64,000 nt of DNA from Acidobacteriota bacterium (GTDB lineage Bacteria > Acidobacteriota > Terriglobia > Terriglobales > Acidobacteriaceae): the NCBI GenBank assembly GCA_021800255.1, contig JAJYZC010000001.1, forward strand, positions 62,001-126,000. The letters are read 5' to 3'. The notes under the pieces were generated by a model, which had not been told where the DNA came from, did no database searches, and saw only the letters and a list, made by a program, of their open reading frames with translations. Positions within the stretch are counted from its first letter, which is position 1, and the number at the start of each line of letters is the position of its first letter. Shown piece by piece: positions 14,224 through 54,788 of this stretch. Both the position numbers and the translations under genes were made by a program.

Positions 14224-15501
<1,278 letters not shown>

Positions 15502-15520
15502 ACGCCTCTCCAATTTCCGT

Positions 15521-15544
15521 TTCTCTTCGACGTTCTCTTCGACG
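15521..15544. repeat. 12-bp tandem repeat upstream of gdhA
   Basis: TTCTCTTCGACG occurs twice in direct contact (15521-15532, 15533-15544), 20 bases upstream of the gdhA start on the opposite strand. Exact abutting copies in a promoter region suggest a binding site or a recent slippage duplication; no regulator can be named. Confidence 0.4.
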
Positions 15545-15939
15545 CTACAACCTGAACAACGTATCGCCCGCAACTCATTGCCGCAAAATGGATTATCCGC
15601 GCGGTCCTGGTTTTTTACCGGGCTTGGCCGCTGCGCCGGCCACGCCGTGCTTGGGCTTCGTATTTTGCATTCACAAGCCCAAACCCCTGTGAGTCTAGGC
15701 CCGGCGGAGAGTTACGTCAAGCCGCTCAGAACCAACCTGGAACCAGGGCAGGAACCTGTTTCCGGCTTGTCCCATAACGGCTCGCGGGCGTAGATGTGCA
15801 TCGCACCGCTGGCAGGCTCCATGACCTGCACGAAGGGGCTGGCAGCGTGGTCTTTGCCTGCGAGTGCCGGCCAGCGGCAATGGGGCGGCGCAGAGATCGC
15901 AGCCGGCGGCAAAAGCGATGCAACAGGTACACTGAGGCT
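15545..15939. other. Intergenic region between divergent gdhA and trpE
   Basis: No gene is convincing. TTGGGCTT (15651-15658) pairs with AAGCCCAA (15675-15682) across a 16-base loop. TACACT (15928-15933) lies six bases before the trpE start. I saw no short leader peptide with tandem Trp codons, so classical attenuation is not supported. Confidence 0.4.
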
Positions 15940-20028: not shown

Positions 20029-20790
20029 TCATAACCCGCCCTGCGCGCCAGCGTCTTCGCCGCCAGAGCCGTTGGCTTCCTCCTGGAGCATCTGGGCATC
20101 GGCAAAGCGATAGCCGACGTACACATCGGTGAGCAAATAAACGGGGTGGGCGGGATCATCCTCGATCTTTTTGCGCAACTGGCGGACGAAGGTGCGCAGG
20201 TACTCGACCTCTTCGCGGTAATCGGCGCCCCACACCGCGGTGAGCAGTTTGGCGTAGGTGATGACCCGGCCGGCGCGGCTCATCAGGCAGTGCAGGATGT
20301 CGAACTCCTTGCGCGTAAGGTGTATCGCCTCGCCGCGCTTGGTGAAGATGTGCTTCGCCGGATCGAGGCGGATTTCTCCGATCTCGATGGGGGCGTCTTC
20401 GGGGCGTTCGGGCGCGCGTACGCGGCGCACTGCGGCGCGAATGCGCGCCACAAGCTCACGGGTGCTGAAGGGCTTGGTCACATAATCGTCTGCGCCCAGA
20501 TCGAGGGCCTCGACCTTATCTTCCTCGCGGTCGCGCACGGTGAGCATGAGGATGGGCAGCTTGGGCGCAATAGCGCGTATGCGGCGCAGGGTCTCGATGC
20601 CGCCGAGGCCGGGCATATTGATGTCGAGCAAGACCGCGTCGTAGACGCCGGCGCGCAGCGCGTGGAGCGCCTCTTCGCCGCGCGAAACCCCCGCGACCTG
20701 GAAGCCCAACTCCACAAGCGGAGGCCGCAACGCCCTGTGGATGGCAGGCTCGTCGTCGGCAACGAGGACACGAATGGCAGGCTGATTCAT
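20029..20790 (-). CDS. KdpE-like response regulator (OmpR family)
   Basis: A 253-residue DNA-binding regulator. The receiver domain (about 5-120) has the acidic pair in LVADDEP, phosphoacceptor Asp56 in DAVLLDINMPGLGG and Lys in YVTKPFS. The winged-helix domain (about 135-235) has HLTRKEFDILHCLM and YLRTFVRQLRKKIEDDP, which resembles KdpE more than other OmpR members. ATG 20790 follows AAAGGAGGAGG. It overlaps the kinase gene by four bases. A ~15-residue polar tail extends past the usual end. No kdpFABC is in the window; the adjacent porin and permease are likelier targets. Confidence 0.9.
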   Translation of the reverse strand: MNQPAIRVLVADDEPAIHRALRPPLVELGFQVAGVSRGEEALHALRAGVYDAVLLDINMPGLGGIETLRRIRAIAPKLPILMLTVRDREEDKVEALDLGADDYVTKPFSTRELVARIRAAVRRVRAPERPEDAPIEIGEIRLDPAKHIFTKRGEAIHLTRKEFDILHCLMSRAGRVITYAKLLTAVWGADYREEVEYLRTFVRQLRKKIEDDPAHPVYLLTDVYVGYRFADAQMLQEEANGSGGEDAGAQGGL

Positions 20791-22307
20791 TGGAGACCTC
20801 CTCCTTTGGTGATGGCGGCGGGAATAGCTGCAAAGAACGTGGTTCCGTCCACATCGCCGCTGGTGACCCACACAGATCCGCCGTGAGCCGCGGCCGCCCT
20901 CTTGGCTACGGAAAGGCCGATCCCGGTGCCGGGGGCGCGATTGGAGCTGGTGGAGGAACGGTAGTAGCGGTCGAAGATACGCTCCCGGTCGGCCATCGGA
21001 ATCACCGGACCAAAACTGTGCACGGAAAAGATCGCTTCCCGGTTGGCAACCGCAACGCGAATGGTGACGGTGGTTCCGTAAATGGAATACTTGCACGCAT
21101 TGTCAATGTACTGTGTGAGCAACGCCATCATCAACTCGCGGTCGCAATAGAGCACCATGTTCTCATCGCTGAGATCAACCACCACTTTCATGCTGGCCAG
21201 GCGGTCTTTGAGACTGGTGAGGAGCTCTTCGATCATGGGCGCCACAGCCACAGGCGCGGCATGGAGAGTGATTTCACCCCCGTCCAGGCGCGCGGTGGTC
21301 AGCAGGCGGTTCGTCAGGTCGCCGAGCAAGCCGGCCTGTTCGTCAATGAGGGCCACCAGATCGGCCCCTGCCGCCGAGAGGCGGCCCATCTCAGCCAGGC
21401 CGGTGGAAGCAGCGCGGATAGCCGTGAGCGGGGTTTTGTAGGCGTGCGCCAGGCTGTCCAGAACCGTGGCCCGCAGTTGCTCCGCGCGGCGTTCGGCTTC
21501 GATGCGGCTCTCATTGGCGAAGGCGCGATAGCGGTCGAAGGTAATGGCGATCAACGAGGCAATCGCGTTGTTGATAAGGGGGTTGGTTTCGCCGCGCACC
21601 ACCAAGCTGCCTACGGGTACAGCACCCAGGCGAACCACGCGCCGCCCGATGCCGGTCGCCCGGTCGTCGTCTGAGGTTTCAAAATAGTAGACGTTGCGCG
21701 CCAGATCTCGCGGGTCTACGCTCCAGAAGCCGGCCTGATAGACCTGATGCAGGTCAGCATCGAAGACAGCGACGGCCTCCAGCGCAAAGATATCGTGAAT
21801 CAGATCGGCTAATTGCTGCCCTGGCTCCAAATGAAAATTCATCTCTAAAGTTCGGCGAGTGAACTCATAGAGATCGTGCATCTGCCTGGCGCGCGCTGCG
21901 GCCTCCTGAGCATGGCCCGCAGCCTTGGCCGAGAGCCGGCTGACCGTGAATGCCACGAGCACGAGCATCAACAGGATGATGGCATCGCCGGGGAGGGCGG
22001 CCAGGGCGAACGGCCGTGGCCCGGTTGCGACCCAGCTTTGCGCCGCCACGGCCGAGAGTGAAACGGCCGCAGCCGGCCAAAATCCGCGGCGCAGCGCCGT
22101 GGGAACCACGGCGAGCAGATAAAGCAGCGCAGCCCCTGGAAGCGTCCAGCGCAGCCAGTAAGTGAGAGTCGCGATGAGGGCTGCGGCTGCGATGCCCAGC
22201 GCGCACTCCAGCGCAAACGCCAGCCGCCGCGGCCGGAGACGGCGCCTGCCGCCAACCGTAAACACAGTACGCACGGAGCTGTAGCTTGCAGCCAACCCAT
22301 TCCCCAC
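20787..22307 (-). CDS. KdpD-like sensor histidine kinase (lacking the N-terminal KdpD domain)
   Basis: A 506-residue membrane kinase. Four hydrophobic segments (about 30-125) form a DUF4118/KdpD-type membrane block, followed by a GAF-like region, then the catalytic core. The H-box is VLDSLAHAYKTPLTAIRAAS, the N-box YIDNACKYS, and the G-box GTGIGLSVAKRAAAAHGGS. The ~400-residue KdpD and USP domains found at the N-terminus of E. coli KdpD are absent, so the sensed signal may differ. The only N-terminal start is GTG 22307 with a weak ribosome site. It is cotranscribed with the regulator (ATGA-type overlap). Confidence 0.88.
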   Translation of the reverse strand: MGNGLAASYSSVRTVFTVGGRRRLRPRRLAFALECALGIAAAALIATLTYWLRWTLPGAALLYLLAVVPTALRRGFWPAAAVSLSAVAAQSWVATGPRPFALAALPGDAIILLMLVLVAFTVSRLSAKAAGHAQEAAARARQMHDLYEFTRRTLEMNFHLEPGQQLADLIHDIFALEAVAVFDADLHQVYQAGFWSVDPRDLARNVYYFETSDDDRATGIGRRVVRLGAVPVGSLVVRGETNPLINNAIASLIAITFDRYRAFANESRIEAERRAEQLRATVLDSLAHAYKTPLTAIRAASTGLAEMGRLSAAGADLVALIDEQAGLLGDLTNRLLTTARLDGGEITLHAAPVAVAPMIEELLTSLKDRLASMKVVVDLSDENMVLYCDRELMMALLTQYIDNACKYSIYGTTVTIRVAVANREAIFSVHSFGPVIPMADRERIFDRYYRSSTSSNRAPGTGIGLSVAKRAAAAHGGSVWVTSGDVDGTTFFAAIPAAITKGGGLQ

Positions 22308-22483
22308 TTTCTCAATTCACATCGCGGTTGTAGAGACCCCGTGCCATAAATGGTTGTGGCGCATACACGCAAAGGCCGGTCGGGTCTTGCCTCAAGTTCT
22401 CAGGGCTGGGCCCCTTTGCTGAAGCGAAGCCTCTGCACAGCCAGCTCCTGAGCAAGAAGGAAACAAGAGAAATTCTATCAGGA

Positions 22484-22516
22484 TCTTCATTCCATTTTCA
22501 TGAGCTTAACGAAGAT
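22484..22516. promoter_or_regulatory. Weak tandem half-site candidate for the response regulator
   Basis: TTCAT occurs twice with an 11-base period (TCTTCATTCCA then TTTTCATGAGC), like the half-sites at 22609 and 24181 but less exact. It lies about 180 bases upstream of the kinase gene and could allow autoregulation. Confidence 0.3.
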
Positions 22517-22608: not shown

Positions 22609-22641
22609 CTTCCGATAATCCTCATAAGTTCTTTATGGAAG
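22609..22641 (+). promoter_or_regulatory. Tandem 11-bp operator candidate upstream of porin
   Basis: Three consecutive 11-mers: CTTCCGATAAT, CCTCATAAGTT, CTTTATGGAAG. The last two share 16 of 19 leading bases with the permease-side site. OmpR-family regulators such as PhoB bind direct repeats with 11-bp spacing next to the -10. TATTAC at 22647 is a candidate -10. Confidence 0.5.
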
Positions 22642-22799
22642 CTCTGTATTACTAGCAGTAGCTCGTAACGATTCTTCGTCTGCGGAATTAGACGCTGCGA
22701 TTGCCAATTCTCGCCTTGGCGATCCAGTGGGTAAGTGTACGCAAAGAGTTGGACTCATCTCGCTACTTTCAAAAACTATTTTCAGGAGGTATTGTGCCG

Positions 22800-24044
22800 A
22801 TGTATCTGAACGCTAAAGTTGTACTGCAATTTATCGCCGGAGCCGCACTTTCCGCCGCGCTCATGGGCGCTGCTCAGGCGCCCGCGTCTTCATCTTCGTC
22901 TGTGCCGGCGCAAAGCCCCGCTCCTGCTGCCCCTGCAGCGGCGGCGCCGGCCCCGCTTTCCACCTTCGTGCTCACGGGCCCGCTGCAGTGGCTGCCTCCG
23001 GCGGTCTTCGACGCCGGCCCCTTCGGCAAGCTCTCAGTGAACGGTATTCTAACCGGGTACGCGCAGGGACAGGACAATCCTGTTGCCGGCGACGACACCA
23101 AGCAGGCCACGCTCAGCAATGGTGAAATCTTCATCCAGAAAGCCGACGGAAAATTGCAGTGGTTCGTCCAGGCCGGCGTATATACCATGCCAACCTTGGG
23201 CGCTGCGTTTCTCGACGCCCAGACTACCAACAAGGACTTCTATGGGCCGGTTCCAGTTGCCTTCGCAAAGCTGGCGACAGGAAAAACGACGACCTGGCAG
23301 ATCGGCGCGCTTCCTACGCTCATGGGCGCTGAGTCCACCTTCACCTATCAGAATACTGACATTGAGCGCGGGCTCCTGTGGGCGCAGGAGAATGCGATTA
23401 ATCGCGGACTGCAGGTGAATCAGACCCTGGGTAAGTACTTTACCGCCTCGCTGAGCTGGAACGACGGCTACTATTCTGATCGCTATACGTGGCTGAGCGG
23501 CTCTCTCACCTTCACGAAAGGCCCGAACAGTCTGGCGTTCGAGGGGATGGGAAACTACAGCCAGACGGCTTATCAAACCATAGCCACGCCAGTGCAGAAC
23601 AACAGCACGATGTACGTGGCGATCTACACCTACACCAAAGGCAACTGGATCGTGCAGCCGTACTGGCAGTATAGCGACGTTCCAACCAACCCAAAAGTAG
23701 GTGTGGCCAAGGGTGCAACCACGGATGGCGGTGCGCTGTTGATGAGTTACGCGTTCAAGCACGGCTTCTCGCTTCCCGGCCGCTTTGAGTACATCACGAG
23801 CTCGGGAAGTGCGGCAGACGGGGCCGTCAACTTGATCTATGGACCGGGCAGCTCGGCCGCCAGTTTTACCGTCACGCCCACCTACCAAAAAGGAGGCTTC
23901 TATTTCCGGACCGACCTGGCGGTGGTGCATGCAACCAACTACACCGCCGGAGACGTCTTTGGTCCGCTGGGAAACGATGCCAGTCAGTTCCGCGCCGTTG
24001 GCGAGTTCGGCTTCATCTTCGGCGACAACATTATCAAGAAATGA
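22800..24044 (+). CDS. Outer membrane beta-barrel porin-like protein
   Basis: A 414-residue exported protein. ATG 22800 lies nine bases after AGGAGGT. A signal peptide (VVLQFIAGAALSAALMGAAQ) is followed by an Ala/Pro/Ser linker of ~30 residues, then a barrel with alternating hydrophobic and polar strands rich in aromatic residues and Asn, and it ends EFGFIFGDNIIKK. Blocks such as WQIGALPTLMGAESTFTYQN and NRGLQVNQTLGKYFTASLSW match the putative beta-barrel porin-2 (BBP2/OmpL-like) group. It probably passes small solutes. An operator-like site shared with the downstream permease suggests joint control by the adjacent two-component system. Confidence 0.78.
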   Translation: MYLNAKVVLQFIAGAALSAALMGAAQAPASSSSSVPAQSPAPAAPAAAAPAPLSTFVLTGPLQWLPPAVFDAGPFGKLSVNGILTGYAQGQDNPVAGDDTKQATLSNGEIFIQKADGKLQWFVQAGVYTMPTLGAAFLDAQTTNKDFYGPVPVAFAKLATGKTTTWQIGALPTLMGAESTFTYQNTDIERGLLWAQENAINRGLQVNQTLGKYFTASLSWNDGYYSDRYTWLSGSLTFTKGPNSLAFEGMGNYSQTAYQTIATPVQNNSTMYVAIYTYTKGNWIVQPYWQYSDVPTNPKVGVAKGATTDGGALLMSYAFKHGFSLPGRFEYITSSGSAADGAVNLIYGPGSSAASFTVTPTYQKGGFYFRTDLAVVHATNYTAGDVFGPLGNDASQFRAVGEFGFIFGDNIIKK

Positions 24045-24425
24045 CAGCCATGGGGCGCTGACCCGGCAGGGTGGGCGGCGCCCGATCTTCGCAAGGGAAA
24101 ACGCACTGGTCCCGGCGGAGGATACGCCTGCGGTGACGCCATGGACTACCCGCCTTCTCAGTGCCCAAGCGGTCAAAGCGCTTTACCTTTTCTTTATTCC
24201 ATCCTCATAGATTCTTTATCGGGTCCTCATGAGACCGCCGGTAGATTTACAACAAGCGGACGGGGCCGGCCAACACTCGACGTGTAACTGGCCAGTCCCG
24301 CTTCAACCGGCAGCGGCGTTCGATCGGGCGCGCAGCCGGGGACTCTCCAGGCCACAGCTTTAGTCAATTTCCGGCAGCCCACCATCGGGAACAAGCAAAC
24401 GAAATTCAACCTTAGGAGAATACTC
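24045..24425. other. Intergenic region between porin and permease genes
   Basis: No gene is supported. It contains the 11-bp periodic operator candidate (24181-24235), a possible -10 TAGATT at 24243, and a ribosome site (TTAGGAG) before the permease ATG. No terminator with a T-run follows the porin stop. Confidence 0.5.
24181..24235 (+). promoter_or_regulatory. Five tandem 11-bp half-sites upstream of APC permease
   Basis: The sequence divides exactly into 11-mers: CTTTACCTTTT, CTTTATTCCAT, CCTCATAGATT, CTTTATCGGGT, CCTCATGAGAC. CCTCATA followed by TTCTTTAT recurs upstream of the porin. The period and the A+T-rich half-sites fit an OmpR/KdpE-type activator. A -10-like TAGATT follows about eight bases later. 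Confidence 0.55.
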
Positions 24426-26234
24426 ATGGCAGATCCAAAAGCACCGACGATGCAGGCCACCCTGGGACTCACCGGGTTGACCGCAAACGCGATGGCGCTG
24501 ATCGCCCCCGGCGCCTTTCTCTGGCTCACCTTCTACATCCAAGCCACCACCGGAGTAGCGGGCCAGCCATCTACCGCGCCTGCCATGTGGATCGGCATCT
24601 TCGCCGCGCTGCTGCTCTGCCTGGCCACCGCCGTCGCCTATGCCGAAATCTCCAAGCTCTATCCCGGCACCGGGTCCAGCTACTACTACGCCGAACAGGC
24701 CATGCTCTCCAAGGACAAGGCCTTCAAATACGCCCGCATCTCCAAGTTCATCGTGGGCTGGGGCTCGCACCTTTACTACTGGGTCTATCCCGGCGTGATG
24801 GTGGCTGTCACGGGCATCTTTGTCGGCTACGTGGTGGGCTTTCTCTATCCCAGCTTCCTCAGCGGCTCCAATCCTGGGCCAGTTTTCACGAGCCTCGTGG
24901 CGGTTGTCTTCTCCTTCTTCGTGGCCTGGATCGCCACGCGCGGCGCCGGCGCCTCCACAGCCGTCAACATCGCTGTCAACATTGTGCAGATCTCCGCTCT
25001 GATCGTCTTTAGTGTGCTGTGCCTCGGCTACCGCGCCAGCCATCCCACCGGCGCGCCCGCGTTCCAGTATGACGGACAGACGATGGCGACCTACACCTAC
25101 CAGTTCGCCACGGCAAAGGATGGCTCGATCATCCGCAACGCCGCCGGCGTGCCTCAGCCGCTGCTAGGCAAGGACGGCAAACCCGTTCCCTTCACCATCA
25201 GTTACCCGACCACCGACTCCAGCGGCAACTTCCTCACTCATCCTGACGCCGCTTCGGTTGTCGGCGTTCATCGTTTCAGTTGGATGTTTATCCAGGCAAC
25301 CGTGGCGATTTTGATTCTGGTCGGCTTCGAATCCGTCACCTCGATGGGAGGCGAGGCCAAGAACCCCACCAAACACATCCCCATCGCGGTCATCGCATCG
25401 CTGCTCATCCAGGGGCTGTTCTGTTACTTATTCGAGTATTTCTGCGCCAACTACTTCCTCAACTCGGGGTATACGATGCAGAGCGCCGCCTCCTCGGCTG
25501 CACCCATCGGCGACATGATGATCATCGTTGGCGACGCGCTGCTTGGCCAGGGCCACGGCAAGTACTTCATGCTGGCGGAAGCCCTCACCGTCTTCCTGGC
25601 GCTGATCGGAACCACGCTGAGCTGCATGAACACCGGCGCCCGCGTAACCTACGCCATGGGCAAGGATGAGGAAGTTCCTGAGCATTTTGGCATGTTGCAT
25701 ACCAAGTCTCTCACTCCGCGCCGCGCCATTTGGACCCTGGCCGGCATCTCCGCCGTCATCGGCGTGGTTGCCGCTTCGCTAGCCTTCGGTGATGCCGGCG
25801 CGCCCAGCGATGCCGCCATCGCCGCCCTGCCACACGGCATCTTCTCCAGTTTCGGCTACCCCTCGCACGCCACGCTGGCAGCGTTACCGAACTCGCTGCT
25901 CGCCATCACGCTTACCTCGAACTTCGGCACCTTCATCCTCTACGGGTTGAGCTGCTTGCTGTGCATCATCGCCTACTCCGAGCGGCATGACAAAAAGATC
26001 GTCGTGCACTACCTTATACCCGGGTTCGGCCTTCTCGCCAACCTCACTTGCATGGCCTTCTACCTCGCGGGTCCGTTCTTCAACCTAGGCACCAAGATGG
26101 AGCCGCTGACAGCCTTGGGCATCGCCGCGGCCTGGGGCCTCTACGGAGTGTTCTACTTCCTGCGCTCTTCCAAGGCCAAGGGCAAAACGGTCCTGCTCGA
26201 ATCCAATCCGGCTTTCAACCGGCAATCAATCTAA
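24426..26234 (+). CDS. APC-superfamily permease (amino acid/cation type)
   Basis: A 602-residue inner-membrane transporter with about 12-14 helices. The N-terminus GLTGLTANAMALIAPGAFLW has the unwound first helix of APC proteins, followed by YAEISKLYPGTGSSYYYAEQ. ILVGFESVTSMGGEAKNPTK is the APC motif around helix 6/7. A ~75-residue external loop after the sixth or seventh helix (about 205-280) is longer than in most amino acid permeases. ATG 24426 has TTAGGAG upstream. The gene follows the porin and shares its operator-like sequence, so the pair may be a regulon of the KdpDE-like system. Potassium or amine transport are both possible; substrate is not deducible. Confidence 0.85.
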   Translation: MADPKAPTMQATLGLTGLTANAMALIAPGAFLWLTFYIQATTGVAGQPSTAPAMWIGIFAALLLCLATAVAYAEISKLYPGTGSSYYYAEQAMLSKDKAFKYARISKFIVGWGSHLYYWVYPGVMVAVTGIFVGYVVGFLYPSFLSGSNPGPVFTSLVAVVFSFFVAWIATRGAGASTAVNIAVNIVQISALIVFSVLCLGYRASHPTGAPAFQYDGQTMATYTYQFATAKDGSIIRNAAGVPQPLLGKDGKPVPFTISYPTTDSSGNFLTHPDAASVVGVHRFSWMFIQATVAILILVGFESVTSMGGEAKNPTKHIPIAVIASLLIQGLFCYLFEYFCANYFLNSGYTMQSAASSAAPIGDMMIIVGDALLGQGHGKYFMLAEALTVFLALIGTTLSCMNTGARVTYAMGKDEEVPEHFGMLHTKSLTPRRAIWTLAGISAVIGVVAASLAFGDAGAPSDAAIAALPHGIFSSFGYPSHATLAALPNSLLAITLTSNFGTFILYGLSCLLCIIAYSERHDKKIVVHYLIPGFGLLANLTCMAFYLAGPFFNLGTKMEPLTALGIAAAWGLYGVFYFLRSSKAKGKTVLLESNPAFNRQSI

Positions 26235-26385: not shown

Positions 26386-27189
26386 ATGTTGGACATTCAA
26401 TTCGGTCAGGCGAGCGATCTCGGCAAAGTGCGCACCAACAACGAGGATGCGATGGGGGTTTTTATCCCCGCTTCCCGGCATCAGGCCCGCTCGCATGGCT
26501 TTCTGTTTGCTGTCGCCGACGGCGTAGGCGGGCTTGATCTAGGCGAGGTGGCCTCGGCCACAGCCATTACGGTGGTTACCAAGGAGTTCGCCAAGGCCCA
26601 AGCCGGGACCATGTTGAACAGCCTTATGCCCCGCCTCATCCAGCGCGCCAACGCCGCGGTGCACGACTGCACGCTGGCCCCCGAGCATCAGGGCAGGAGA
26701 ATGGCCACGACTTTGGTGGCCTGCGCTCTGCGCTACGATCAGGCGGTCATTTCACATGTCGGCGACTCCCGCTGTTACCTCGTCCGCGGCGGTCAGGCTA
26801 AGCAGGTAACGCAGGATCATACTCTGGTCAATGAACAGAGAAAGATGGGCCTCGTCACCGCCGGCCAAATAGCCGAGTCCGAATCCCGCCACGTGCTCAT
26901 TCGCTCCCTGGGGCCGGAGATGTTCGTCTCGCCCGACACGTCCTCGCTCACGCTCGAAGCCGGTGACGTGCTGGTGCTGTGCACAGATGGCCTGCACAAT
27001 GAGATGAGCGACGCCGAAATTGCGGCCATCGCCGGGCAGCGTAAGAGCGCCGGCGAGCTGGCCGGCGAGCTGGTGGCGCGGGCGGTCGAAATCGATGGCG
27101 GCGACAACGCCACCGCGCAGGTAATCCGTATCCGCTCAGTCGAGCAGGTGGGCATGTATCGCGGCCGCCCCTACCGGCTTCCCGCCTGA
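26386..27189 (+). CDS. PP2C-family protein serine/threonine phosphatase
   Basis: A 267-residue cytoplasmic metal-dependent phosphatase that reverses Ser/Thr kinase action. All PP2C motifs are present: VRTNNEDAMGVF near the N-terminus, FAVADGVGGLDLGEVAS, VISHVGDSRCYLVRGGQAKQ, VLVLCTDGLHNEM and DGGDNATAQVI. The aspartates in ADGVGG, CTDGL and GGDN provide the metal site. The family normally has this size without extra domains. A Ser/Thr kinase gene follows in the same direction across a palindromic element, making a probable functional pair. Confidence 0.93.
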   Translation: MLDIQFGQASDLGKVRTNNEDAMGVFIPASRHQARSHGFLFAVADGVGGLDLGEVASATAITVVTKEFAKAQAGTMLNSLMPRLIQRANAAVHDCTLAPEHQGRRMATTLVACALRYDQAVISHVGDSRCYLVRGGQAKQVTQDHTLVNEQRKMGLVTAGQIAESESRHVLIRSLGPEMFVSPDTSSLTLEAGDVLVLCTDGLHNEMSDAEIAAIAGQRKSAGELAGELVARAVEIDGGDNATAQVIRIRSVEQVGMYRGRPYRLPA

Positions 27190-27402: not shown

Positions 27403-28377
27403 ATGGGCTTTTATGACAGCTTGGAAACAGGTGCGCAGCTCGATTCATACCGCATCGAGACGCCCGTTGCGCGCAGCGGAATGGCTTCCATCTACCGCGC
27501 CACCGACCTGCGCGATAACCGCACCGTGGCCCTTAAGATTCCCCACCCCGATATGGAAGCCGATCCCATCCTCTTCGACCGTTTTCAGCGCGAAGCGGCG
27601 ATCGGCGAAAAGCTTCACCACCCCAACGTGATGCGCGTCTTCGCCGGCGAAGACCGCTCCCGCGTTTATATGGTCATGGAGTGGTGCGAAGGCCGTCTTC
27701 TCCGCCAGATTCTCAACCAAGGCAAGCTGCCCCAGGACCGCGCCCTCCGCATCGCCGCCGGCGTCCTGGAGGCGCTCGACTATATCCACGCCAACGGGGT
27801 CGTCCACCGCGACCTCAAACCCGAAAACATCATGGTGGATGACCACGACAGCATCAAGCTCATCGACTTCGGCATCGCCGGGGACATCGGCGCCCGCCGC
27901 CTCACCTACGCCAACTTCACCGCTACGCTCGGAACTCCGGATTACATCGCTCCAGAGCAGGTAAAAGGCAAACGCGGCGACGGCCGCACCGACCTCTATG
28001 CCATGGGCGTGATCCTCTATGAGATGCTCACCGGCAAGGTGCCTTTTTCCGGCCCTTCGCCGCTGGCCGTCATGAACGACCGTCTGTTGAACCACCCGCT
28101 GCCGCCCAGCGTGGCCAACCCCGCAATCTCCCCTCAACTGCAGGAGGTCCTGTACCGTGCTCTGGAGCGAGACCCCAAGAATCGATATGCCACAGCCCAT
28201 GACTTCCTCTGGGACCTCCAGCATCTGAACGAGGTGGGCGCGGCCCCTCGCAGCGAGCTGCGCGACTGGCGGAAGCGCAAGTCTCACCTTCCGCGTAAAT
28301 TGTTGTTTTACGCAGCCCTGGCCCTGATTCCGGTTGTTATTCTGTTGCTGATGGTGCTCATCGCACGTCACGGTTAA
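27403..28377 (+). CDS. Membrane-anchored Ser/Thr protein kinase
   Basis: A 324-residue Hanks-type kinase. Catalytic Lys45 is in VALKIPHP; the catalytic loop is VVHRDLKPEN (Asp137), the metal-binding motif DFG at 155, and TPDYIAPEQ marks the activation segment end. The glycine loop reads VARSGMASIYRA, with only the central glycine kept, so ATP binding relies on a degenerate loop. The kinase domain is followed by a basic linker (WRKRKSHLPRK) and one C-terminal membrane helix (about 300-321), with no extracellular sensor domain. It lies downstream of a PP2C phosphatase, suggesting reversible phosphorylation. Confidence 0.92.
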   Translation: MGFYDSLETGAQLDSYRIETPVARSGMASIYRATDLRDNRTVALKIPHPDMEADPILFDRFQREAAIGEKLHHPNVMRVFAGEDRSRVYMVMEWCEGRLLRQILNQGKLPQDRALRIAAGVLEALDYIHANGVVHRDLKPENIMVDDHDSIKLIDFGIAGDIGARRLTYANFTATLGTPDYIAPEQVKGKRGDGRTDLYAMGVILYEMLTGKVPFSGPSPLAVMNDRLLNHPLPPSVANPAISPQLQEVLYRALERDPKNRYATAHDFLWDLQHLNEVGAAPRSELRDWRKRKSHLPRKLLFYAALALIPVVILLLMVLIARHG

Positions 28378-28426: not shown

Positions 28427-30769
28427 GTGCGCATTCTCACCCGATACATCCTCCGCGAGATTCTCTCCTACACGCTTATCGGGTGCGCGCTGTTCACTTT
28501 TATCCTCTTCATGCCGCAGTTGCCCCAAGTCCTTGAGGTCGTAGTACGGAACAGTTCCACGCTCGCGAAGGTGATGGAAGTCTTTCTGTTCACTCTGCCC
28601 AACCTGCTCAAGGTCACCATCCCCATGTCGGTTCTTGTGGGCATCCTGCTGGGCCTCAGCCGCCTGGCTGCGGACAGCGAGGTGATCGCCATGCGCGCCT
28701 CCGGCCTGGGCATCGGCTACCTTTTGCGAGTCTCCTCTATCGTGGCCGTCGCCGGCACGCTCTTGGGGCTGGCCAACTCCCTCTACCTGGCCCCGTGCGC
28801 CAATCAGGCCATCCTGAACCTGCAACACGCCCTCGAAACTTCCCAGGCCTCCTATGAGATCCAGCCGCGTGTCTTCTACGAGGACTTCCGCAATGCCGTG
28901 CTTTACGTGCAGGACGTACGCTCCGGCACAGGCGCCGCCAACTGGCGCCAGATTTTCATGGCTAACGTCAGCGACCGCTCTAATCCCACCATCCTCACCG
29001 CCGCCTCCGCCACTGTGGTCAACGACCACCAGGAGCTGTTGATGCGGCTGCGCAACGGTGCGCAGCAAGAGGCCGCGCCCGGCCATCCGCAACAGTACAA
29101 CATCTCCACCTTCGCCACCACCGATATGCCCTTACAGCTCAACCAGCCGGGCAGCGTTCACTTGGGCCGGTTGGAAACCGCCGTCTACGCTTTGCCCATG
29201 AGCGCTTTGCTCGAGCGCATTCACGGCCCTGACGCCAAACGGTACCTCATTGAGATGCACAGCCGCTTCGCCTTTCCCGCCGCCTGCCTGGTGCTGATGC
29301 TGGTGGGAGTTCCCCTGGGCGCGGCCTCGCGCCGCGGCGGCAAGAGCTCGGGCTTCGTGTTTACCATCCTTTTGGTCTTCGTCTACTACTTTCTCTCCTC
29401 CACCGGCATCGCCCTGGGCCGTCAGAACAAGCTCGACGCTTTCTTCGCAGTGTGGTCCGCCAACTTGCTATTCGCCTGCGCGGGAACCTTTCTGCTCTGG
29501 CAGATGGCCAGCGGCGGCCGCCTCCTGAACGCCCTCGCCAAATGGAGCGAGCGCATGCGCAAACCCAGGCTCGCCATCCCCGCCAAAGCCAATGGCTCCC
29601 CCGTCTCCGGCCTTCTGCACAAGCTCCATCCGGACTGGCAGCACGCCTACCCCCGCAATCCGTTTTTGCTCATTCTCGACGGGTACGTGCTGCGTGAGTT
29701 CCTCACTACCTTTCTTCTCATGCTGGCCGGCTTCGTTCTGCTCATCCTGGTCTTCACCTTTTTCGGTCTTGTCGGCGACATTCTGCGTAACCACATCGCC
29801 CTCATCATCGTCGGCGACTATCTTGTCAACCTTACTCCCAGCATGATCTACCAGATCACACCGCTGGCGGTGCTCATCGCCACGCTGGTCACCTTCGGCG
29901 TACTCAACCGCAACAGTGAGATCGTAGCCATGAAGGCCACCGGTATCAGCCTCTACCGCCTGGTCGTTCCTATTGTCTCCATCGCCGCCGTCTTTGCCGT
30001 CAGCCTCTTCCTCTTCGACCAGTCCTATCTGCCCCAGGCCAACCGCCGCCAGGAGGCTCTGTACAACGTCATCAAGGGCCGCCCTCCGCAAACCTTTTTC
30101 CAGCCGGAGCAGCACTGGATCTTCGGGCAGACCCGCCCCGGCAAGCCCGCGCGCATTTTCTATTACCAGTTCTTCGATCCTGGCCGCGACGAGTTCGCTA
30201 ACCTCTCCATCTTCGAACTCGACCCCTCCACCTTCCAGATCACGCGCCGCATCTTCGCCGCCCGCGCCTCCTGGGACCAGGCCGGCGGCGGATGGCGCTT
30301 CCAGAACGGCTGGGTGCGCGACATTCAGGGCGCTAACGTAACCCAATACCAAGAGTTCAACCAGGCCAGCTTCCCGGAGATTCACGAAACTCCCCGGTAT
30401 TTCAAGAAGGAAAATCTGGAATCCCAGGAGATGAGCTTCGATCAACTCAGCCGCTATATCCGCGACCTCGGCCAGAGCGGATTCGACACCATGCGCCTGC
30501 GCGTGGCCTTATGGCACAAACTCGCCTACCCGCTCATTGCTGTCATCATGGCCGTGCTGGCCATCCCCTTCGCGCTCTCCATGGGCCGCCGCAGCTCGCT
30601 CACCAGCATCGCCGTGGCCATCGCCGTCGCGCTCGCTTACTGGGTCGTGGACGGTCTCTTCGGCGCCATGGGCAACGTCAACTACCTGCCCGCGCCGCTG
30701 GCTGCATGGTCCGCCGATGTGCTGTTCGGCTTGGTGGGCAGCTATCTGCTCTTGCGCACACCGACTTAA
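28427..30769 (+). CDS. Fused LptF-LptG lipopolysaccharide export permease
   Basis: A 780-residue protein made of two YjgP/YjgQ units. The first (about 1-370) begins MRILTRYILREILSYTLIGC with SRLAADSEVIAMRASGLG; the second (from ~420) begins LILDGYVLREFLTTFLLMLA with LNRNSEIVAMKATGIS. In most Gram-negatives LptF and LptG are separate proteins of ~360 residues that form a heterodimer with the LptB ATPase, extracting LPS from the inner membrane; here a ~50-residue linker joins them. Each unit has its own periplasmic beta-jellyroll region. Start is GTG 28427 with AAGG upstream. Followed by an ABC exporter that may act earlier in the same route. Confidence 0.9.
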   Translation: MRILTRYILREILSYTLIGCALFTFILFMPQLPQVLEVVVRNSSTLAKVMEVFLFTLPNLLKVTIPMSVLVGILLGLSRLAADSEVIAMRASGLGIGYLLRVSSIVAVAGTLLGLANSLYLAPCANQAILNLQHALETSQASYEIQPRVFYEDFRNAVLYVQDVRSGTGAANWRQIFMANVSDRSNPTILTAASATVVNDHQELLMRLRNGAQQEAAPGHPQQYNISTFATTDMPLQLNQPGSVHLGRLETAVYALPMSALLERIHGPDAKRYLIEMHSRFAFPAACLVLMLVGVPLGAASRRGGKSSGFVFTILLVFVYYFLSSTGIALGRQNKLDAFFAVWSANLLFACAGTFLLWQMASGGRLLNALAKWSERMRKPRLAIPAKANGSPVSGLLHKLHPDWQHAYPRNPFLLILDGYVLREFLTTFLLMLAGFVLLILVFTFFGLVGDILRNHIALIIVGDYLVNLTPSMIYQITPLAVLIATLVTFGVLNRNSEIVAMKATGISLYRLVVPIVSIAAVFAVSLFLFDQSYLPQANRRQEALYNVIKGRPPQTFFQPEQHWIFGQTRPGKPARIFYYQFFDPGRDEFANLSIFELDPSTFQITRRIFAARASWDQAGGGWRFQNGWVRDIQGANVTQYQEFNQASFPEIHETPRYFKKENLESQEMSFDQLSRYIRDLGQSGFDTMRLRVALWHKLAYPLIAVIMAVLAIPFALSMGRRSSLTSIAVAIAVALAYWVVDGLFGAMGNVNYLPAPLAAWSADVLFGLVGSYLLLRTPT

Positions 30770-53052: not shown

Positions 53053-53172
53053 ATGCCGTCAAATTTCGCGTTTGTTATGATGGGAGTTCTGTTCCTTGCG
53101 CATTTGGCGGCTACGCAGCCGTCGCCGAAACTAAATCTTCATGGAATCTTTATGCGCCAAAACGTATCCTGA
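53053..53172 (+). CDS. Possible 39-residue hydrophobic small protein
   Basis: ATG 53053 lies four bases after AAAGGAG (53042-53048), and the frame closes with TGA at 53172. The product starts MPSNFAFVMMGVLFLAHLAA, a single hydrophobic segment, and ends MRQNVS. It lies between the sigma-54-like site and glnA. No family is recognised; only the ribosome site and hydrophobicity argue for it, and chance is a real alternative. Confidence 0.25.
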   Translation: MPSNFAFVMMGVLFLAHLAATQPSPKLNLHGIFMRQNVS

Positions 53173-53366: not shown

Positions 53367-54788
53367 ATGCCCCGCACTCCCAATGACGTGAAAAAGCTCG
53401 CCAAAGATGCCGGCATCAAGATCGTCGATCTGCGATTTATCGACCTGCCGGGCACGTGGCAGCATTTTTCGATTCCCGTTGAAGACCTTGAGGACGATCT
53501 GTTCAGCGACGGCATCGGCTTCGACGGCTCCAGCATCCGCGGATTCCAGCAAATTCACGAGAGCGACATGCTCCTGGTTGCCGACGCGGATACGGCGCAG
53601 GTGGACCCGGTTCTTTCGGTTCCCACGCTCGACATCATCTGTAATGTGGTCGATCCCCTCACCCGCAAGCCGTACACCCGCGACCCCCGCTATGTGGCGC
53701 ATAAAGCCGAGGCCTATCTCAAGAGCACGGGCATCGCGGACACCAGCTACTGGGGCCCGGAGGCGGAGTTCTACATGTTTGACAGCGTCCGCTACGACCA
53801 AACTGCAAATAGCGGCTACTACCACATCGATTCCAAAGAAGGCGTCTGGAATACCGGCCGGGAGGAAAACCCGAACCTCGGCTTCAAGCTCCGCCACAAG
53901 GAAGGCTACTTTCCGGTCCCGCCCGCCGACCAGATGCAGGACATTCGCTCGGAGATCATCCTCGCGCTCCGCGGAGTGGGTGTGCCCGCTGAGGTGCACC
54001 ACCATGAGGTGGGCACGGCAGGCCAGGCCGAGATCGATATACGCTTTTCGCCGCTCGTCAAAATGGCCGACCACATGATCTGGTACAAGTACCTCGTTCG
54101 CATGATCTGCAAAAAGCACGGCATCACGGCCACCTTCATGCCCAAACCGCTCTTCGGCGACAACGGCTCCGGAATGCACGTGCACCAGAGCCTCTGGAAG
54201 GGCGACACCAATGTCTTTTACGACCCCAAGGGCTACGCCCTGTTGAGCCAGACTGCCAAGTACTACATCGGCGGCCTGCTCAAGCACGCGCCTGCGCTGC
54301 TGGCCTTTGCCGCGCCCACCACGAACTCCTACCGCCGCCTGGTGCCGGGCTTTGAGGCGCCAGTGAACCTGGCCTACTCGCAGCGCAACCGCTCGGCGGC
54401 TTGCCGCATCCCCATGTACTCCACCAGCCCCAAGTCCAAGCGCATCGAGTTCCGCTGCCCCGATCCTGCCGCCAATCCTTATCTTTGCCTCCCGGCGCTG
54501 ATGATGGCCGGCCTCGACGGAATTTTGAACAAGATCGATCCCGGCGAGCCGTGGGACCAGGACCTGTACGAGCTTGAATCAGAAGAATTGGCCAAAATCA
54601 AGAGCACGCCCGGCTCGCTGGGCGAAGTTCTCGACGCCTTGGAGAAGGATCACGAATTCCTGCTGAAGGGCGACGTCTTCACGCCCGATCTCATCGAAAC
54701 CTGGATCTCGTACAAGCGCACGCGCGAGCTGGCGCCCGTCAACCTGCGCCCTGTGCCCTACGAGTTCTTCCTCTATTACGATGTCTAA
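53367..54788 (+). CDS. glnA: Glutamine synthetase type I
   Basis: A 473-residue cytoplasmic dodecameric enzyme making glutamine from glutamate, ammonia and [23 protein letters not shown] is the N-terminal beta-grasp signature. The metal-site motifs are EAEFYMF and [14 protein letters not shown], with [19 protein letters not shown] and [20 protein letters not shown] following. [11 protein letters not shown] carries the Tyr in the position adenylylated by GlnE in E. coli. ATG 53367 follows GATAGGAGA. Together with gdhA it provides ammonia assimilation. It ends 90 bases before a convergent threonine aldolase gene. Confidence 0.96.

Follow-up and report, generated by a model that had tools for sequence, protein, structure and literature searches.

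A predicted OmpR-family nitrogen switch with an 11-bp repeat operator in a clade of Acidobacteriaceae

The two-component pair and its gene neighbourhood

The DNA analysed here, called the window, is a stretch of 64,000 nucleotides from a genome of the family Acidobacteriaceae. Its minus strand codes for an OmpR-family response regulator (RR, 20029–20796), in which PF00072 and PF00486 scored over cut-off, and for a histidine kinase (HK, 20787–22307) with DUF4118, HisKA and HATPase domains. The plus strand carries a BBP2 beta-barrel porin (22794–24044; PF07642, 7.5e-50), an APC-family permease (24426–26234; PF13520, 4.3e-20) and two genes assigned by domain match, a PP2C phosphatase (26386–27189) and a Hanks-type Ser/Thr kinase (27403–28377), both frequent neighbours of this module in relatives. 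The region at 28427–30769 encodes a 780-residue protein that was matched twice by LptF_LptG, apparently a fusion of both lipopolysaccharide-export permeases.

Relatives were sought in 150 genomes from this family; most are draft assemblies, and many come from metagenomes. The permease search matched 149 of these genomes, mostly through distant paralogues, and clear orthologues (64–82% identity) were present in 31 genomes besides the window's own, some of them cut at contig ends. A plasmid search for the permease returned distant matches only. When 29 permease neighbourhoods and 80 named loci, all from Acidobacteriota, were compared, the closer relatives showed the conserved order RR-HK and, divergently, porin-permease-PP2C-Ser/Thr kinase. 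Where the permease was missing or located elsewhere (L230–L239), the pair lay beside genes for an Amt-family protein, an unnamed glutamine-synthetase-family type (GSX), porin, PP2C and kinase, and many of these loci had the operator described below. A GlnII-like gene was found just downstream of the module in G102 and G131, and GSX in G124. With porin and APC together here and porin and Amt together there, one inner-membrane partner seems to have been exchanged for the other, a hint that the permease may import a nitrogen compound. Structure prediction with AlphaFold gave a poor model of the permease (mean pLDDT 45.7), on which no conclusion is based.

Orthologues of the RR with at least 63% identity were found in 20 of the 150 genomes, and a further three genomes had a relative at 56–58%. 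The RR combines a receiver with a winged-helix output domain, and its locus contains direct repeats of about 11 bp, as in OmpR/PhoB-type systems, to which it would presumably bind. The receiver aspartates were kept in 20 of 20 orthologues and the lysine in 19, and the recognition helix read YxRTFxRQLRKKIE in all 20. The H-box of the kinase read LAH[A/E]YKTPL in 20 of 20 kinase orthologues, an unusual form.

The original prediction implied that this pair is the KdpDE of the genome and stated that kdpFABC is missing. Neither point held. The genes kdpA and kdpB were found next to a KdpDE-like pair of their own on contig C93 of the same genome, and a regulator tree placed 23 regulators of the RR kind and 19 of kdp type on opposite sides of one branch with a support of 100/99. 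The recognition helix of kdp-adjacent regulators was YLRVFxGQ in all six compared. The best NCBIfam match of the HK was of KdpD type, its transmitter being KdpD-like. The KdpD N-terminal and Usp domains were not found in the HK by domain search; their absence does not discriminate, since the kdp-adjacent kinase also lacked them. The pair scored below the NCBIfam equivalog cut-offs for KdpE and KdpD (166.3 of 325 and 121.9 of 1123 bits), and two kdp-adjacent regulators that were scanned also fell below the KdpE cut-off (196.5 and 192.8), so that it does not discriminate either.

Tandem repeats before the porin, the permease and the kinase

Tandem 11-mers had been proposed upstream of both the porin and the permease, sharing CCTCATAnnTTCTTTAT and numbering five units before the permease, and direct reading of the sequence bore out the positions, the shared element and the number. 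The porin promoter (22609–22653, plus strand) contains CCTCAT at 22620–22625 and CTTTAT at 22631–22636, flanked in the same 11-bp register by the weaker units CTTCCG at 22609 and CTCTGT at 22642, and an extended −10 read from the sequence as TGT-ATTACT (22645–22653). The permease operator (24181–24230, plus strand) consists of CTTTAC at 24181, CTTTAT at 24192, CCTCAT at 24203, CTTTAT at 24214 and CCTCAT at 24225, and corresponding operators precede the permease gene in L033, L034, L035 and L039. With a 20-bp weight matrix, whose training loci were taken from other genomes, the porin operator scored 33.4 bits at 22618 and the permease operator 12.3, 24.8 and 15.4 bits at 24190, 24201 and 24212. 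On both strands of the window, the only other positions of at least 10 bits were 22483 and 53135.

The first of these corresponds to a weaker copy that had been noted at 22484 as a possible basis of autoregulation. The copy was confirmed as a second operator (22483–22502, plus strand; CTTCAT at 22485, TTTCAT at 22496; 19.4 bits), and its position speaks for the autoregulatory role. Two base pairs separate it from the HK-RR promoter's extended −10 (22472–22480), which reads TGATAGAAT in minus-strand orientation and follows a conserved TGnTAnAAT pattern. In 27 regions, the window and the 26 described below, a second site of at least 9 bits was present in 13, and a kinase-strand TGnTAnAAT abutted it in 10 of the 13; overall this pattern occurred 18 times on the kinase strand and never on the porin strand. 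Second sites abutting a kinase-strand −10 make it likely that the pair controls its own transcription through the copy at 22484. We also considered whether the kinase operator might be oriented on the minus strand, and rejected this, as the second site runs in the porin direction.

An EM motif search was run unseeded, from random-word starts, on the 26 named loci in which kinase and porin lie side by side. It returned the consensus ATCCTCATnnnTTCTTTATGnnnTGTTTGCGTTACT in 26 of 26 intergenic regions (40 bits). Blocks 1 and 2 of this consensus are half-sites 11 bp apart, and block 3 reads as an extended −10 (TGC-RTTACT). Half-sites directly before an extended −10 form the layout of an activator at −35, and from this position we infer activation. 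The window and the 26 regions together support a direct-repeat operator of OmpR/KdpE type with an 11-bp period, as originally predicted. At least five of the training regions (L122, L124, L135, L149 and L155) share contigs with G083, G008, G033, G102 and G131, so the porin sites there are no independent test, while the sites at glutamine-synthetase (GS) genes, amtB and glnA are.

Such repeats might arise by chance or belong to a generic promoter element instead of a specific operator, as the half-sites are AT-rich and placed at the −35 position. We consider this extremely improbable. The exact core CCTCAT-N5-CTTTAT (CCTCATNNNNNCTTTAT) had two matches in the genome of 3,359,396 bases, before the porin and the permease, and its reversed control had none in the whole 3.36 Mb; moreover, the motif was present in every one of the 26 related kinase-porin regions. 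A strict pattern, TCYTYATNNNNTCYTYATG, which was drawn up after part of the nitrogen-gene sites had already been seen, gave 29 matches in the 20 regulator-bearing genomes, against 10 for its reversal in all 150. A genome scan had been proposed as a check, with random occurrence counting against the operator; the motif proved to be rare and to lie before the porin, the permease, glnA and amtB.

Predicted nitrogen-gene targets and their co-occurrence with the regulator

The link to nitrogen genes came from a broad pattern, CYTYAT-N5-CYTYAT, written before any nitrogen gene had been seen and applied to five genomes of the genus. It matched 36 times, compared with 11 times for the reversed control, and 16 of the 36 matches preceded porin, APC, glnA, GlnII-like (GSII), GSX or amtB genes. 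The window's genome had eight matches: four at the porin and APC genes, one each at glnA and amtB, and two within coding sequence. The glnA match is the operator CTTCAT-N5-CTTTAT at 53135–53154 (plus strand, 26.3 bits), upstream of a type I glutamine synthetase gene on the same strand (53367–54788; NCBIfam TIGR00653, 651.5 bits against a cut-off of 429.15). The glutamate dehydrogenase gene at 14224–15573 was rejected as a target, having no nearby site of at least 5 bits with the weight matrix.

With the strict pattern, 27 of the 29 sites in the 20 regulator-bearing genomes preceded a porin, APC, GS or amtB gene. The targets were porin in 16 cases, GSX in five, GlnII-like genes and amtB in two each, and glnA and APC in one each, leaving two sites with no such target; the three GS types combined accounted for eight. 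The GSX protein itself (L207:1577-3007, L303-L341) was found in 35 of 40 genomes and scored below all listed NCBIfam glutamine-synthetase cut-offs.

Sites at individual genes were then scored with the weight matrix. For GSX, a site of at least 10 bits, a threshold chosen by the analyst, was present in 8 of 17 regulator-bearing genomes and in none of 16 lacking the regulator (Fisher 0.0018), and in 9 of 18 once G083 had been added later. A Mann-Whitney comparison of the GSX scores over all genomes gave p 0.22, because GSX had no site in about half of the regulator genomes. The single glnA in a genome with the regulator had a site, against none in seven genomes without it (eight loci, best 6.8 bits), and all three GlnII-like genes in genomes with the regulator had one. 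At amtB, a site of at least 10 bits was found at 4 of 19 loci with the regulator and at 0 of 8 without. Judging from the amtB and GSX counts, the regulon is patchy.

The presence of sites was compared with that of the regulator. Here "without regulator" means no match at E 1e-80, so that more distant paralogues may remain. Of the 20 regulator-bearing genomes, 17 had the strict pattern (29 sites), versus 15 of 127 without the regulator (15 sites; Fisher 6e-11, with the three genomes bearing a 56–58% relative left out and no correction for relatedness by descent). Those three genomes held two strict sites in total, spread over two of them. An operator at any GS gene occurred in 12 of the 20 regulator-bearing genomes versus 0 of 23 without the regulator (Fisher 8e-6, descent uncorrected), and a porin or permease site of at least 10 bits in 20 of 20 genomes with it. 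Among the 17 strict sites outside the 20 genomes, five were located at kdp operons or KdpDE-like pairs, one preceded the kinase that accompanies a 56% relative, and none had a GS or Amt homologue downstream.

The regulator might nevertheless control the porin and permease only, with the GS and amtB sites owned by another OmpR-family protein of similar specificity. Related sites do exist in genomes without the regulator, including those at kdp or KdpDE-like loci in five genomes, so the half-site is shared within the family. At four loci of genomes without the regulator (L050:7934, L053:6708, L056:477 and L059:6442), operator-like sites of 12.6–24.0 bits precede a Ser/Thr kinase gene, which shows that another protein can own similar sites, and no GS site was seen in 8 of the 20 regulator genomes (seven negative; the copies in G064 are cut at contig ends). 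We regard this alternative as quite unlikely, because the GS sites track the regulator (the 12/20 versus 0/23 above) and GS genes adjoin the pair in several genomes. The 11-bp motif is very likely to be the site of the neighbouring OmpR-family regulator, and the sequence evidence agrees with the original choice of the adjacent pair as operator owner. For two of the 56–58% relatives, an operator-like site was also seen shortly upstream of the kinase gene (L240:9674, L241:11374).

Potassium, known regulators and the proposed nitrogen switch

The operator could also belong to a KdpE-type regulator of potassium supply, with the porin and permease importing potassium. In relatives, the proximity of kdpAB and BBP2 porins led us to weigh the APC permease as a potassium transporter, a reading that was set aside. 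The kdpAB genes adjoin the module in L149, L151 and L155, and in L096, L105 and L107 a BBP2-type porin lies next to kdpA. By eye, kdp promoters of relatives bear related 11-bp repeats, CTTTAC- or CCTTAC-like, and KdpE of E. coli uses the half-sites TTTATA and TTTACA, hexamers repeated directly with 5 bp between them (PMC3264566). The window operator is therefore KdpE-like in form, but its targets differ. The strict targets in regulator genomes were GS, amtB, porin and APC genes and no potassium genes, the kdp operon is accompanied by a regulator of its own that belongs to a separate group, G124 keeps the sites although kdpA was not found in it, and strict sites in genomes without the regulator never precede a GS or Amt homologue. 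On this evidence a potassium regulon is unlikely. The sequence supports the earlier suggestion of a regulon other than potassium uptake, and the accompanying guess of amine supply came close.

The kdpAB genes beside the module in those three loci are unexplained by the nitrogen reading, and potassium and ammonium uptake may be linked. The kdpA-adjacent porins in L105 and L107 were 61–62% identical to the window's porin. With kdpA-adjacent BBP2 porins in other Acidobacteriaceae, it is as if one porin family were used for the uptake of potassium as well as of nitrogen.

NtrBC is a two-component system that controls glutamine synthetase and AmtB, its regulator NtrC being a sigma-54 activator. The window RR differs in having OmpR-type domains, not those of NtrC, and predicted sites that lie before an extended −10. 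None of 34 genomes had a protein scoring above the cut-off of the NCBIfam NtrC model (TIGR01818); because that cut-off was made for an equivalog, this is weak evidence that NtrC is absent.

With KdpDE the present system has in common the OmpR family of its regulator, hexameric direct repeats spaced by 5 bp and a kinase with a KdpD-like transmitter. It differs in that the window RR belongs to a separate group, with T and R in the recognition helix versus V and G in kdp-adjacent regulators, that no KdpD N-terminal domain was detected in the HK, and that the predicted targets are nitrogen genes.

A functional parallel is GlnR of actinomycetes, which is an OmpR-family regulator of nitrogen genes such as glnA and amtB with repeats in an 11-nt register; it is described as an orphan without a co-localised kinase, having lost phosphorylation-pocket residues and recognizing the box gTnAc-n6-GaAAc (PMC10704036). 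The protein family, the repeat register and the nitrogen genes, here predicted targets only, are thus alike. In contrast to GlnR, the acidobacterial RR has an adjacent kinase, as seen both here and around the RR genes examined in relatives, and keeps its pocket, and its half-sites are CYTYAT (consensus ATCCTCATnnnTTCTTTATG) and do not form a GTnAC-type box. OmpR-type nitrogen control is already known from GlnR, and full-text searches of a limited literature collection, aimed at acidobacterial nitrogen regulation and at the parts of the module, listed no paper on an acidobacterial nitrogen regulator.

Taken together, we think it probable that the adjacent OmpR-family two-component system activates nitrogen acquisition in a clade of Acidobacteriaceae via 11-bp operators. 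Nitrogen shortage would be the signal on which the kinase, whose catalytic residues are present, phosphorylates the RR. An RR dimer would then bind the two hexamers 11 bp apart, which lie directly before the extended −10, and would, as their position suggests, activate transcription of the porin and permease. Depending on the species, the bound RR would also activate a GS gene, whether glnA, the GlnII-like or the unnamed type, and in some species only, amtB. Binding at the copy beside the kinase −10 would provide autoregulation.

A wider interpretation, to which we give about an even chance, is that a KdpDE-like system was recruited in one Acidobacteriaceae clade as the master regulator of nitrogen assimilation, in which case OmpR-type nitrogen control would have arisen twice independently, here and in GlnR. 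Its specificity would have moved from CYTTAC-like kdp repeats to CYTYAT through the helix changes V to T and G to R, and three different GS genes would have been captured in different species by operator gain.

Acidobacteria are abundant in soil. With a named pair and a named operator, the proposal can be put to the test in relatives that grow in culture, such as Occallatibacter savannae (L126), and would allow nitrogen status to be read off metatranscriptomes. The system would also represent a natural experiment in which a response regulator shifts its DNA specificity and gains a new regulon.
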